A stretch of DNA of 40,181 bases from a virus. A program made the translations under genes and the position numbers. Location of the stretch: positions 1-40,181 of the IMG/VR virus record IMGVR_UViG_3300025137_000087; one strand, given 5' to 3'. A model generated the notes under the pieces. That model worked only from the letters and a program-made list of their open reading frames with translations. It had not been told where the DNA came from and ran no database searches. Positions 2,709 through 32,123 of this stretch are shown here, piece after piece. Position 1 is the stretch's first letter; every line of letters begins with the position of its first letter.

Positions 2709-2918
2709 CTACCTTTCATTCTCCACAAACTCTACTTCAACATTCTCTAAACCTAAAACCTCTAACATCTGTGCAACACACTTCTCAGGGTCTAAATTAA
2801 AGTCACAGTCAAGCTTTTTACCATTAACATACACATTAGTACCAAAGTCAAACGCTGTTTCCTCTGAAACTTGACTATAATTAGTCCATTCCTCAATTAA
2901 AATCTCTGTTTTTTTCAT
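2709..2918 (-). CDS. Small acidic protein, first gene of leftward cluster
   Basis: A 69-residue acidic protein with several Glu/Asp residues and two cysteines but no zinc-site spacing. Alternating segments (for example VYVNGKKLDCDF) suggest beta strands followed by a helix. No membrane segment and no recognised family. It is the first gene after the leftward promoter-like box at 2951-2958, with an A/T-rich leader of about 30 bases, so it should be the best expressed of the four. Function unknown. Confidence 0.65.
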   Translation of the reverse strand: MKKTEILIEEWTNYSQVSEETAFDFGTNVYVNGKKLDCDFNLDPEKCVAQMLEVLGLENVEVEFVENER

Positions 2919-2950
2919 TTTCTTTTATATTTAATTAAATTATACTTATT

Positions 2951-2980
2951 CAAATATAGTGATAAAAATCGTTATCTTTG
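2951..2980. promoter_or_regulatory. Overlapping divergent promoter pair
   Basis: Minus-strand TATATTTG (2951-2958) drives the leftward cluster from 2918. Plus-strand TATCTTTG (2973-2980) drives the rightward genes from 3010. Only 14 bases separate the boxes, so two polymerases could not bind at once. Neither has a TTG at the standard distance; the leftward one has TTG at 23 bases. Confidence 0.6.
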
Positions 2981-6028: not shown

Positions 6029-7585
6029 TTAATTACTTCTTTTAAAAGTTATTGTTCCATTTGTCATTAATAAAGTGTTTGCAGCAGAAACTGAATTTTC
6101 CAAAGCACATCTTACAACTTTAACAGGATCTATAATTCCTGACTCTATCATATCACAAAGCCTATACTCCTTAACATCATATCCAAGCTTCTCTGATACC
6201 ATTGGTAAGATTTCTGAATACTCAACACCTGCATTACCTAATATAGTCTTAAATGGTGCTAATATCGCTTCCTTGACTAATCTATACCCTTCTTTTTCTT
6301 CAGATAATATTCTTGAAGCATTTACTAAGGCTGTACCACCTCCTTCAACAACTCCCTCTGCTAAAGCTGCTCTTACTGCGTGTATAGCATCATCAACTCT
6401 ATCGGTCTTCTCTTTTAATTCTGATTCAGTAGAAGCACCAACTTTTACAACAGATACACCACAAGATAATTTAGCAACTCTATCTCCTAAGTATTTCTTC
6501 TCTAAATCACTATGACTATTCTCTATAACTTTATTTAAATCAGTCATTCTTTTGTCAATAGCCTCTGCATTAATCATTTCATCAAAGAATAATATTGTAT
6601 TCTCTTTTGTTACAGTTAAACTACTACAAACTCCTAATAATTGTCTAGGATCGTAACTTGCAATATTATCACCTGTATCAATATCTAACACCATAGCATT
6701 TGTAGCTAATGCAATATCAGATAAGTAATCCATTCTTTTCTCTGCAACAGCAGGTGGAGATATAACAGCAACCTTTAATCCTTGTTTAGCATTAGTGTAT
6801 AAAGTCTTTAATACTTGGTGTTCCATTTCAGAAACTATAAGAAGAGGTTTCTTTTCTTTATTAGTAAACTCTAATACAGGAAGAATATCTTTTATCGATT
6901 GAATATTTCTATTAGATAATAAAACATAAGGATTATCTTTAAACTCAACACATCTTTTTTCTGGAACATTATTAAAAAATTCTATATCATAACCTCTATC
7001 AATAGGCATACCATTAATACTTTCTACATAAGTTGTACTTGTATCAGAGTCTTCATAAGAAACAACACCATTTTTACCTGCTTTTAAGAAAGCTTCTGCT
7101 ATAATTGAACCTAACTCTTCATCGTTGTTAGAAGATATCTTAGCAACGTCTTTAATATACTCATCATCTACTTCAACAGAATTATGTTTTAGGTATTCTA
7201 AAACTTCATCTTTAGCACTTTCGATTTCATTCTTTAAATCAATAGGACTTGCGTTCATACTGATTGCGTGTTGAGATAGTTTAACAAACTCTTGAGTTAA
7301 CACTGCTGTACTTGTTGTTCCATCTCCTGCTTGATTAACTGTCTTGTTACAAGCTTCTTTTACAAACTCTGCACCTAAACTTTCATTAGGGTTATCTAAG
7401 AATATAGCTTTAGCAACACTTACTCCATCTTTAGTAGGATTAGGCTTACCACCTCCATCTTCGATTAACATTGTTCTACCTCTGTACCCCATAGTAGACG
7501 ACACAGCATCACATACTACATTTACACCATTGATTAATGGCTCTTTGGCATCTTTACCAAACTTTACTTCTTTAATTGGATTCAT
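6029..7585 (-). CDS. groEL: Phage GroEL-like chaperonin (Cpn60)
   Basis: A 518-residue group I chaperonin. Near the N-terminus is TKDGVSVAK (residues 51-59), then the ATP-binding loop GDGTTSTAVL (87-96), where Asp88 matches the catalytic Asp87 of E. coli GroEL. Toward the C-terminus are DRVDDAIHAVRAAL, which contains the second ATPase aspartate, and EGVVEGGGTALV. The glycine/methionine-rich tail of bacterial GroEL is missing. The frame can be extended to an ATG at 7612, but the promoter box TATATTTG on the minus strand (7610-7617) covers that codon, so MNPIKEV at 7585 is the likely start. It should form rings that fold phage proteins, together with the GroES-like proteins at 5380 and possibly 21932. 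Confidence 0.93.
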   Translation of the reverse strand: MNPIKEVKFGKDAKEPLINGVNVVCDAVSSTMGYRGRTMLIEDGGGKPNPTKDGVSVAKAIFLDNPNESLGAEFVKEACNKTVNQAGDGTTSTAVLTQEFVKLSQHAISMNASPIDLKNEIESAKDEVLEYLKHNSVEVDDEYIKDVAKISSNNDEELGSIIAEAFLKAGKNGVVSYEDSDTSTTYVESINGMPIDRGYDIEFFNNVPEKRCVEFKDNPYVLLSNRNIQSIKDILPVLEFTNKEKKPLLIVSEMEHQVLKTLYTNAKQGLKVAVISPPAVAEKRMDYLSDIALATNAMVLDIDTGDNIASYDPRQLLGVCSSLTVTKENTILFFDEMINAEAIDKRMTDLNKVIENSHSDLEKKYLGDRVAKLSCGVSVVKVGASTESELKEKTDRVDDAIHAVRAALAEGVVEGGGTALVNASRILSEEKEGYRLVKEAILAPFKTILGNAGVEYSEILPMVSEKLGYDVKEYRLCDMIESGIIDPVKVVRCALENSVSAANTLLMTNGTITFKRSN

Positions 7586-7609
7586 ATAAATTAAATTATT
7601 ATTATAGTA

Positions 7610-7617
7610 CAAATATA
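7610..7617 (-). promoter_or_regulatory. Leftward promoter -7 box for the chaperonin genes
   Basis: Minus-strand TATATTTG lies directly after a leftward terminator (7618-7658) and 24 bases before the preferred groEL start at 7585. It gives the chaperonin genes a transcript of their own, separate from the two basic protein genes upstream. No TTG is at the usual -33 distance. Confidence 0.55.
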
Positions 7618-28699: not shown

Positions 28700-30040
28700 A
28701 TGGCATTAAATGCAAGTCCTGCTGTGAAGTTAGTACCAACAGCAACAAAAGAAATTTTATCAAGTAACTATTTAGAAGCATCTGACTTTGACTTCACTAA
28801 CCAGTATTTACCTGAGTTATACGAAAAAGAATTTGCACGTTACGGAGAGCAACAATTAAAAGGATTCTTAGAGCGTATGCAACAAGAAGTACCTATGCAG
28901 TCTGACCTTATCAAATGGTCTGAAGAAGGAAGATTACGTCCTGTAGCAGAAGGTGTAACTAGAGTAGCAGAAGTATTTACTTCAGCAGGTCATACAGTTC
29001 GTAAGAATGATACAATCATCGTAAATGATGGTGTAGGAGTAGAGGAAAAAGGTATCGTTACTGATGTAGATACAGATACTTTTACAGTTAAGTGTTCTAA
29101 AGCAGCAGATTGGACAATCGCTGATGCAGGATTAAAACTATTTGTTTACTCTAACGAATACAGAAAAGGAACATTAGGAAGAGATGAAAGTTTAGAAGCT
29201 CAGCCAGATATCTTTGAAAACAAGCCAATTATCATTAAAGATGTAGATATCGTAAATGGTTCTGACATGGCTCAAATCGGATGGATTCAAGTTGAAGGAG
29301 ATAATGGAGCAGGGTACTTATGGTACTTAAAGTCTCGTTCTCAAACTCGTATGCGTTTTGATGACTATATCGAAATGGGTATGATTGAAGGAACTTCTTT
29401 TGAAGCAGGTTCAGCAGCAGCTACAGCAGGTTTCACAGGTACAGAAGGTTTCTTTGAAGCAGTAGAACAAGGGAATGTATTTGATGGTGAAATCACTGAC
29501 TTAGACGATGTTGATGAAGTATTGAACAGATTGAATAAGCAAGGAGCTATCTCTGAATACTTAATGTTTAACAACTTCTCTCAAGATAGAGCGATTGATA
29601 AGTTATTAGCTTCTCAAAACTCTTATGGTGTTGGTGGTACTTCTTACGGAGCATTCAACAACAGTGAGAAAATGGCTTTAAATTTAGGATTCACAGGATT
29701 CAAAATGGCAGGTTATGAAATCTACAAAAACCAATGGAGATACTTAAATGACCCTACTTCAAGAGGTTTATTTGAAGGATTAGGTTCTATTCATGGTGTA
29801 ATGTGTCCATCAGGAACAAAGACTGTTTACGATAACGTATTAGGAAGTAGAGCTACTTTACCTTTCTTACACGCTAAATACCGTAAGTCAGCTACTGAAG
29901 ACAGACGTTACAAAGTATGGAATACAGGTTCTGCAGGTGGTGCTGCTACTTCTAGTTTAGATGCTAATGAGTTGCACTTATTAACTGAAAGAGCTTTATG
30001 TACAATGGGACGTAACAACTTTGTTATGATTAAGGGATAA
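28700..30040 (+). CDS. Major capsid protein
   Basis: A 446-residue HK97-fold capsid protein of the crAss-like type. The N-terminal part contains YGEQQLKGFLERMQQEVPM and DLIKWSEEGRLRP, patterns that I recognise from crAss-like capsid proteins. An inserted beta-rich segment (about residues 98-155, with NDTIIVNDGVGVEEKGIVTD) matches the extra domain of these capsids. The C-terminal half has several Gly/Ala-rich loops and ends RALCTMGRNNFVMIKG. Codon use here is more regular (more CGT for arginine) than in the flanking genes, typical of a highly expressed gene. A terminator follows 24 bases after the stop. Confidence 0.88.
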   Translation: MALNASPAVKLVPTATKEILSSNYLEASDFDFTNQYLPELYEKEFARYGEQQLKGFLERMQQEVPMQSDLIKWSEEGRLRPVAEGVTRVAEVFTSAGHTVRKNDTIIVNDGVGVEEKGIVTDVDTDTFTVKCSKAADWTIADAGLKLFVYSNEYRKGTLGRDESLEAQPDIFENKPIIIKDVDIVNGSDMAQIGWIQVEGDNGAGYLWYLKSRSQTRMRFDDYIEMGMIEGTSFEAGSAAATAGFTGTEGFFEAVEQGNVFDGEITDLDDVDEVLNRLNKQGAISEYLMFNNFSQDRAIDKLLASQNSYGVGGTSYGAFNNSEKMALNLGFTGFKMAGYEIYKNQWRYLNDPTSRGLFEGLGSIHGVMCPSGTKTVYDNVLGSRATLPFLHAKYRKSATEDRRYKVWNTGSAGGAATSSLDANELHLLTERALCTMGRNNFVMIKG

Positions 30041-30137: not shown

Positions 30138-30887
30138 ATGGCTACAAGAGCAAAAAAGAAAAATGAAGAGGTATCTATTGATAGAACCTATGTATTAACA
30201 GGAGATAGCACTCCTATGCAATTTATGTTAAGGAATCGACATAAAGCAAAAAGTCCTTTACAGTATTTCAATGAAGACACAGGTGTTTTAAGAACATTAA
30301 GGTATGCTACAAATCACAATTCTGTATTTGAAGACGAACAGACAGGAGATGTTACACTTGGTTACATTGTATTTAAGAATGGGAAGTTGTTCGTTCCTAA
30401 ATCTAACCCTACATTACAAGAGTTTTTGAAGTTACACCCTTTAAGAGATAAAATCTTTGAAGAGTTCCAACCAGAGAAAAAAGCACAAGAACAATTATCT
30501 TTATTAGAAGTTGAAATGGAAGCTACATCTTTAGCGTTTGGAATGGAAGCAGATGAATTAGAGAGTATGGCATTAGCTATATGGGGAAGAAAAGTATTAA
30601 CTATGAAGACTTCTGAGATTAAGAGAGATGTTTTACTTTATGCTAAGGCAAACCCTGAATCATTTATGAATTTAGCTGCAGATGATCTAACCAAGTTAAA
30701 AGGTTTAGGTGTAAGAGCAGTATCTATGAATCTGTTAACCTACAAGAATCAAGCATTCTATAATGGTAAGACTTTAGTATGTAAGTTACCATTTGATGAA
30801 ACAGATGAGTACAACACTTTAGCTAGATACATGAAAACTGAAGATGGAAGTAAATTATTAGAGTTTCTTAATAGTAAATTGAAATAA
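30138..30887 (+). CDS. Conserved virion-cluster protein, 249 residues
   Basis: A 249-residue protein between capsid and the neck genes. It has a basic start (ATRAKKKNEE), an N-terminal beta-type domain with the phrases LRNRHKAKSPLQYFNEDTG and RTLRYATNHNSVFED, and then a helical part with FLKLHPLRDKIFEEF and an acidic linker. The C-terminal part reads LTKLKGLGVRAVSMNLL, similar in form to a helix-hairpin-helix. I recall proteins of this type from phages with Bacteroidota hosts, near capsid genes and of unknown role. It may be a capsid accessory or DNA-binding virion protein. It ends at a terminator. Confidence 0.7.
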   Translation: MATRAKKKNEEVSIDRTYVLTGDSTPMQFMLRNRHKAKSPLQYFNEDTGVLRTLRYATNHNSVFEDEQTGDVTLGYIVFKNGKLFVPKSNPTLQEFLKLHPLRDKIFEEFQPEKKAQEQLSLLEVEMEATSLAFGMEADELESMALAIWGRKVLTMKTSEIKRDVLLYAKANPESFMNLAADDLTKLKGLGVRAVSMNLLTYKNQAFYNGKTLVCKLPFDETDEYNTLARYMKTEDGSKLLEFLNSKLK

Positions 30888-30955
30888 TAGTTGTACATTA
30901 GCAGTATGATAGTTGCATATCATATTGTATTTTTAAATGTTATAAGATTAAATTA

Positions 30956-30986
30956 GGGTAGGTTTGCAGACTTACCCTTTTTTTAT
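30956..30986 (+). terminator. Intrinsic terminator
   Basis: GGGTAGGTT (30956-30964) pairs with GACTTACCC (30969-30977) around a TGCA loop with two G-U pairs, followed by seven T. It ends the transcript of the 249-residue protein gene before the non-coding block. A weaker stem (TATGAT/ATCATA, 30905-30924) lies just upstream. Confidence 0.85.
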
Positions 30987-31001
30987 TCCAATAATTAGTT
31001 G

Positions 31002-31009
31002 TATCTTTG
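31002..31009 (+). promoter_or_regulatory. Promoter -7 box for the non-coding block
   Basis: TATCTTTG, directly after the terminator at 30956-30986. It has no open reading frame after it until 31425, which itself has another box at 31391. So the transcript it starts is apparently non-coding. Confidence 0.5.
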
Positions 31010-31390
31010 CTAACAGATATTACTAGCCTAATATAACATACGATTTAACAGAAAACCTATTAGAATTTGTTTGGCTAGAAACATTTGATAATAGGTATTT
31101 TTGTTTCTGAGGTGTTTACAATGGTCTGACCTTAACTCAGACAACGACCACGAAGTTTTATTAGTGGGAACAGATGAAAGTTACTCTCGAAAATCTAGGC
31201 ACTAACCCGCAAACCGTTAACCTAGTCAAATATAGTATTTATACAAACAGAGGCTTAGCAGTAAGTAAAGGTAATTAGTAGGTAGTTCAATGAAGTTTAA
31301 TCGTTTTGTTATGATTATTTATATTTAGTTAAAGATATACTATATATAAGTATAGGGTTTGCATTTCCATATACTAATCTATAAATTAAC
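31010..31390 (+). ncRNA. Candidate structured non-coding RNA
   Basis: About 380 bases without a reading frame, between a promoter-like box and the next promoter-like box. Complementary segments are CTAGCC (31023-31028) with GGCTAG (31073-31078); ACCTATTA (31055-31062) with TAATAGGT (31089-31096); GTCTGA (31124-31129) with TCAGAC (31137-31142); CTAGG (31195-31199) with CCTAG (31221-31225), with TAAC/GTTA inside; and AGTATA (31349-31354) with TATACT (31369-31374). The first two pairs interleave, which is a pseudoknot order or a choice of two folds. TCTGAG (31106-31111) and CTCAGA (31136-31141) form an alternative. No tRNA arms were found. A regulatory, packaging or anti-defence RNA are all open. 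Confidence 0.45.
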
Positions 31391-31398
31391 TATCTTTG
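31391..31398 (+). promoter_or_regulatory. Promoter -7 box for the neck and tail genes
   Basis: TATCTTTG, 26 bases before the ATG at 31425. The hairpin AGTATA/TATACT (31349-31374) lies just upstream and overlaps the place where a -33 element would sit, so it might act as a control site. Confidence 0.5.
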
Positions 31399-31424
31399 CA
31401 TATACACAATAAATTGATATAAAT

Positions 31425-32123
31425 ATGATAAATAATGTAAGAAACACTGTTCTTTTTATGTTAAACAAAGAGAATAGAGGTTACATCACTCCTTCAGAGT
31501 TCAATCAATTCGCAGATTTAGCACAGATGAGTATATTTGAAGATGACTTTCATGCGTACGCTAAAGCTATTGTAAAACAAAATGCAAGACTATACAATAA
31601 TGGAAACTCTGATATACCAAGACATTTAAGAGAGAGAATAGATTTACTAACTAAAGAATCTAATTTAACTTATAACGCAACAGATTTAACTTGGAGTAAT
31701 ACAGACTCTTCTTTCTATAGATTGGTTAATTTATATTGTAATGGTATAGATATAGAAGAGGTTTCTAAATTAGAAGTGAATAAGCTTTTAAAGAATAATT
31801 TAATTAAGCCAACAGAAGATTATCCTGTTTATGTAAAACTTGGAAGTACTTTTAAAGTATATCCTGATTTATCTGCAAATGATATAACATCTCTTTACGT
31901 GAAAAGACCATCTGTTCCTAAATGGACTTATGTTGATGTACAAGGAAATCCTTTATTCAATCCTTCTGCAACAGATTACCAGGACTTTGAAATACATCCT
32001 TCTTGTGAAATGGAGTTGGTTATAAAGATATTATCTTATTGTGGTATGAGTATTAGAGAAGCAGATGTTGTACAAGCATCTCAGAATATAGATATGTCAG
32101 AGAAACAGAATCAAGGAATATAA
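31425..32123 (+). CDS. Ring/connector-type neck protein 1
   Basis: A 232-residue protein with the pattern of a conserved crAss-like structural protein: a helical N-terminus with NKENRGYITPSEFNQFADLAQ, a central beta part (YPVYVKLGSTFKVYPD and LYVKRPSVPKWTY), then LFNPSATDYQDFEIHPS and a final helix (ELVIKILSYCGMSIREADVV). Related proteins in crAss-like virions form rings between portal and tail. The position before the second ring-type gene and the muzzle gene supports this. It should be part of the neck, making the DNA channel. A ring role is known in the family, and here it is inferred from reading and order. Confidence 0.75.
   Translation: MINNVRNTVLFMLNKENRGYITPSEFNQFADLAQMSIFEDDFHAYAKAIVKQNARLYNNGNSDIPRHLRERIDLLTKESNLTYNATDLTWSNTDSSFYRLVNLYCNGIDIEEVSKLEVNKLLKNNLIKPTEDYPVYVKLGSTFKVYPDLSANDITSLYVKRPSVPKWTYVDVQGNPLFNPSATDYQDFEIHPSCEMELVIKILSYCGMSIREADVVQASQNIDMSEKQNQGI

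Follow-up and report, generated by a model that had tools for sequence, protein, structure and literature searches.

A Lineage-Specific, ORF-Free Insert with a Predicted Promoter Between Virion Genes of an Elemovirus-Related Virus: Possible Non-Coding RNA Cassette or Degraded Gene

The Locus and Its Flanking Genes

The window is the whole of the 40,181-nt virus record IMGVR_UViG_3300025137_000087, whose relatives include the Elemovirus group of Flavobacterium phages. The locus of interest includes: (i) two genes upstream, one of which probably encodes the major capsid protein, (ii) an intrinsic terminator followed by a promoter-like box, (iii) an ORF-free insert and (iv) a second promoter-like box and the head gene that it precedes (Table 1). 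Comparison of the capsid and head genes with solved structures gives no match. Elsewhere in the window, the minus strand encodes a GroEL chaperonin (6029-7612, Cpn60_TCP1, E 3.7e-54), which is likewise annotated in Elemovirus phages.

Table 1. Features of the insert and its surroundings (window coordinates).
Feature	Position	Strand	Description
Probable major capsid gene	28700-30040		5' of the 249-aa gene; PHROG label, virion structural protein
Gene 5' of the slot	30138-30887	+	249 aa, function unknown; phrog_34748; syntenic in IMG/VR relatives
Intrinsic terminator	30955-30985	+	AGGGTAGGTTTGCAGACTTACCCT-TTTTTT; predicted to close the upstream transcript
Promoter 1	31002-31010	+	Bacteroidota -7 box TATCTTTGC; predicted start near 31014-31016
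Insert	31013-31390	+	ORF-free, lineage-specific; ~380 nt
CTAGCC	31023-31028	+	Complement of the entire hairpin apical loop
Coding-like fragments	31030-31278	+	Codon usage resembles coding sequence, with shifts of frame; possible degraded gene
Hairpin	31047-31105	+	AACAGAAAACCTATTA...TAATAGGTATTTTTGTT; -18.9 kcal/mol; apical loop GGCTAG
Promoter 2	31391-31399	+	-7 box TATCTTTGC; predicted native promoter of the head gene
Virion structural (head and packaging) gene 3' of the slot	31425-32123	+	phrog_14543, E 5.5e-46

Terminator and Promoter Boxes

The preliminary description of this DNA placed a terminator and two promoter-like boxes around the stretch, and all three are found. The terminator is one of only two in 2.3 kb, where shuffled sequences give 0.7, and the local fold of positions 30880-30999 reaches z -3.7. 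Both boxes are of the TAnnTTTG type, the Bacteroidota -7 consensus that is confirmed in Flavobacterium johnsoniae as well (PMC7366714). The + strand of the 40 kb window has just three copies of the exact 9-mer TATCTTTGC, at 1183, 31002 and 31391; the first of these ends a very AT-rich region of about 1 kb without ORFs near the left end (219-1207), 5' of the gene at 1208. Eight other intergenic boxes on the gene strand lie 25-65 nt 5' of an ATG start codon, and the box at 31002, with the next gene start 423 nt away, is the sole exception in this comparison, which sets aside the boxes at 31096 (inside the hairpin) and 5987 (overlapping a minus-strand gene). On sequence grounds, the insert has a promoter of its own.

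The stretch had also been described as an independent transcription unit. Its own start is retained with the box at 31002, while its own end is not, as the terminator scan of 2.3 kb detects none between 31002 and the second promoter. Without a terminator ahead of promoter 2, transcription should continue into the gene at 31425, and the insert is thus not a closed unit.

The Insertion Slot in Related Phages

Protein scans of IMG/VR recover 157 loci with both flanking genes. The window apart, the gaps at these loci measure 44-152 nt and then 386 nt upward. In distant relatives, each long gap contains at least one gene of ~95 codons that has its own promoter and, in the sequences inspected, its own terminator. 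The encoded ~95-aa family (M.KFL.IPVT...) occupies the slot gap of L032-L181 in one to three copies per phage; Pfam gives no match to it, and PHROGs a marginal one at best. In the close group, defined by a capsid identity of at least 72%, most gaps are 81-152 nt long and hold a terminator and a promoter only. Other occupants of the slot include a GIY-YIG gene (L198, L199 and L203), a reversed HNH gene (L200 and L223), a 57-aa ORF (L189) and, in L195, an ORF-free gap of 677 nt with its own promoter. Three phages that are ~95-97% identical around the slot (L196, L195 and L200) present it as empty, non-coding and HNH-bearing, respectively. The site between the 249-aa gene and the head gene is an insertion slot, because relatives differ in whether it is empty or holds non-coding DNA, an HNH or GIY-YIG gene or a small ORF.

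The ORF-free cassette of L195 (L195:4877-5555) is ~520 nt long and unrelated to the window insert, with its own TAACTTTG promoter and the repeated words AAAGTGTCTAT and TGCGGAGG. On the + strand it folds at z -2.4, most strongly at the 5' end (z -3.2). The HNH gene that fills the slot of L200 keeps the 3' end of this cassette, and L196, whose slot is empty, shares ~96% identity with L195 in the surrounding sequence. In L195, the capsid gene and the one that follows it are also separated by an inserted gene (L195:3119-4083), which encodes 307 aa with the homing-endonuclease-type motifs NUMOD1 and NUMOD3 and is absent in L196.

The window insert itself is absent from every close relative with a sequenced gap. 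In the closest of these, L003, the downstream protein is 69% identical and the gap holds only the terminator and promoter 2, where TATCTTTGCATATACA is common to L003 and the window. Conservation in the equivalent gap of relatives, proposed earlier as a check, is therefore not what is found; the close relatives have the short terminator-promoter gap or other insertions. The argument that this much non-coding DNA is kept in a late region and hence functional is weakened by the insertion slot and by the weak coding-like signal of the + strand described below.

Reading Frames and the Degraded-Gene Alternative

The absence of a reading frame holds: no ORF of at least 60 aa is found in the stretch, and the longest frames with a possible start span ~34-36 codons. 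The best 90-nt window of the insert scores 0.20 for codon usage vs. 0.42 +/- 0.16 in true frames. In no 90-nt frame does the resemblance to codon usage in the window's genes exceed chance; for a 60-nt piece at 31119, p is 0.025. These codon scores do not fit an intact gene.

A degraded gene is a real possibility. In this explanation, a moron (a cassette of one gene and its promoter) once filled the slot, then lost its start codon, frame and terminator, and persists as an untranslated remnant. A frameshift-tolerant codon score on the + strand reaches 12.8-21.1 vs. 6.7-8.1 in shuffles (p at most 0.014 at low frameshift cost, 0.02-0.09 at high cost or without frameshifts; overall p 0.001-0.09, varying with frameshift cost), and no such signal is present on the - strand or in control non-coding stretches. 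This result is suggestive of a heavily degraded gene, short of proof. The 389 nt from one promoter to the other also fall inside the 367-429 nt of most single-gene cassettes in distant relatives. By contrast, about six frame changes must be allowed within 380 nt before significance becomes strong, no such gene is present in close relatives, and the translated fragments have no match in Pfam, PHROGs or phage proteins and only chance-level matches in 397 Flavobacteriaceae genomes. Likeness to the 95-aa slot family is also lacking, as a profile of the family gives no signal with or without frameshifts (12.9 vs. 13.0 in shuffles); among the controls, copies with 20% substitutions score 20-80 in this test and those with 35% overlap the shuffles, such that decay of 35% or more escapes it. 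A decayed homing endonuclease was rejected, since the insert has no HNH or GIY-YIG sequence or remnant.

Folding of the Insert

Two interleaved pairs, in the order expected of a pseudoknot, had been noted in the insert, and both are present. The first would join the GGCTAG apical loop of the hairpin (31073-31078) to its perfect complement CTAGCC, which occurs once, 45 nt upstream, compared to an expectation of 0.02 occurrences in the whole insert. The second would join ACCTATTA (31055-31062) to TAATAGGT (31089-31096). The hairpin, as the best + strand window of the insert, has p values vs. shuffles of 0.02, 0.03 and 0.05 for windows of 60, 70 and 100 nt, respectively, and the best local hairpin of the - strand has p 0.2-0.6. 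While the hairpin and CTAGCC thus exceed chance, the interleaved arrangement of 6 and 8 bp within 90 nt arises in 8% of shuffles (p 0.08). The statistical support for the 5' structure is modest and partly post hoc, and it is the CTAGCC/GGCTAG pair that speaks most for an RNA. Two alternative pairings that had been proposed further downstream, TCTGAG/CTCAGA vs. GTCTGA/TCAGAC (31106-31141), are at chance level; positions 31100-31160 fold at z +0.4, and the insert has many other stems of 6-7 bp.

These data bear on a plain spacer or long leader, in which recombination left an extra promoter and filler DNA with no function of its own and with a hairpin formed by chance. Such an origin is consistent with a whole-insert fold no better than that of shuffled sequence (z -0.8 to -1.4), with most helices being at chance level, and with the absence of the insert from close relatives. 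The promoter box, however, is kept perfect, and the hairpin has both a strand bias and a loop complement, which together leave a spacer improbable.

Homolog Searches

No homolog of the insert is detected by blastn in phages and plasmids or in the 397 Flavobacteriaceae genomes, nor in four k-mer/motif scans of viral sequences (IMG/VR) and a k-mer scan of GTDB contigs, the exact-word scans being of a kind that misses diverged copies, and the collections possibly lacking the records nearest to the window. In 39 related records, searched by blastn and with a covariance model of the hairpin, no homolog is found and the model matches only itself. Several candidates were rejected: (i) viral k-mer scans with three other words give chance matches only, (ii) an apparent paralog at window positions 2878-2959 (68%) is an AT-rich chance match adjoining a gene start, (iii) the motif AGGT..CTGACCTTA, common to the insert and L195, has no homologous sequence among the 80 viral-scan matches listed, and (iv) a 48-nt match in L426 (E 7e-5, one of the 397 Flavobacteriaceae genomes) lies inside a gene whose coding frame resembles one window fragment over a short length, and was judged a chance match.

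An assembly artefact is very unlikely: the record is a single contig and no second sequence spans the gap (the closest one, L184, which is contig 3300009436_001085 and 92% identical in DNA, ends inside the capsid gene, before the gap), but the flanks match those of relatives, with genes, the terminator and promoter 2 continuing on either side. Membership in a described class (GOLLD, ROOL, pRNA, tmRNA or tRNA, group I intron or riboswitch), suggested only by size and a position outside genes, is already largely refuted for the families in Rfam 15, as the Rfam search called for at the outset gives nothing at gathering score and nothing convincing at E up to 10 (4227 covariance models) and ARAGORN finds no tRNA or tmRNA.

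A Possible Non-Coding Cassette with a Folded 5' End

The reading preferred here, at a probability of about 0.43, takes the stretch for a non-coding cassette, specific to this lineage and equipped with its own promoter, in a slot that gains and loses small cassettes; its RNA would act, if at all, via the folded 5' end. The cassette would lie 3' of one virion gene and its terminator, and 5' of the promoter that serves the next. Transcription would start near 31014, and the first ~100 bases may fold into a compact 5' structure, a putative pseudoknot, in which the six-base loop of the hairpin pairs with CTAGCC upstream. The remainder, mostly weakly folded, would form a long untranslated leader of the head gene through transcriptional read-through, unless the RNA is cleaved. 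Any function of the RNA could reside in a stable 5' fragment or in setting the amount of read-through mRNA that reaches the head gene. The earlier suggestions of a packaging RNA, a regulator of late genes or an anti-defence RNA are not supported, as no finding bears on them. What the analysis supports, at the level of prediction, is an untranslated stretch that is transcribed from its own promoter and folds at its 5' end.

A working RNA and a degraded gene are nearly even; the RNA is slightly favored by the strand bias of the hairpin, the complement of its loop and the second ORF-free cassette of the same layout in L195. Against the non-coding cassette stand the lack of a homolog in the collections searched, the shuffle-like fold of the whole insert, the frameshift-tolerant + strand signal and the missing 3' end. 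A broader proposal, that this phage group carries interchangeable, promoter-bearing non-coding RNA cassettes with folded 5' ends (the window and L195) where others carry homing endonucleases, and hence an RNA-moron slot, is unlikely. If the RNA is functional, phages would swap small non-coding RNAs between virion genes, as they do morons and homing endonucleases, and the slot would be a place to look for more such RNAs. If the stretch is instead a degraded gene, it captures an unremarkable moment in the turnover of cassettes.

Comparison with Known Systems

Phage morons are single-gene cassettes with their own promoter. The window insert resembles them in its own promoter directly after a terminator, as do the ~95-aa genes with their own promoter in the slot of distant relatives; unlike morons, it lacks both an intact gene and its own terminator. 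The Flavobacterium phages of the elemo group (Elemovirus, MT497065) share the gene order at the slot and have a terminator and then an TATCTTTG promoter 5' of the homologous head gene; by contrast with the window, their gap is ~83 nt, with no insert and no second promoter. The GOLLD and ROOL RNAs of phages (PMC12286853) are similarly non-coding and phage-borne, with a transcript of their own presumed, whereas the window insert is much shorter, has no Rfam similarity and is not near tRNA genes. The seg and mob genes of T4 are free-standing homing endonucleases inserted in phage intergenic regions (PMC2988022). While the window insert encodes no endonuclease or remnant of one, it resembles such insertions in lying between virion genes, and relatives of the window carry HNH and GIY-YIG genes in the very same slot.
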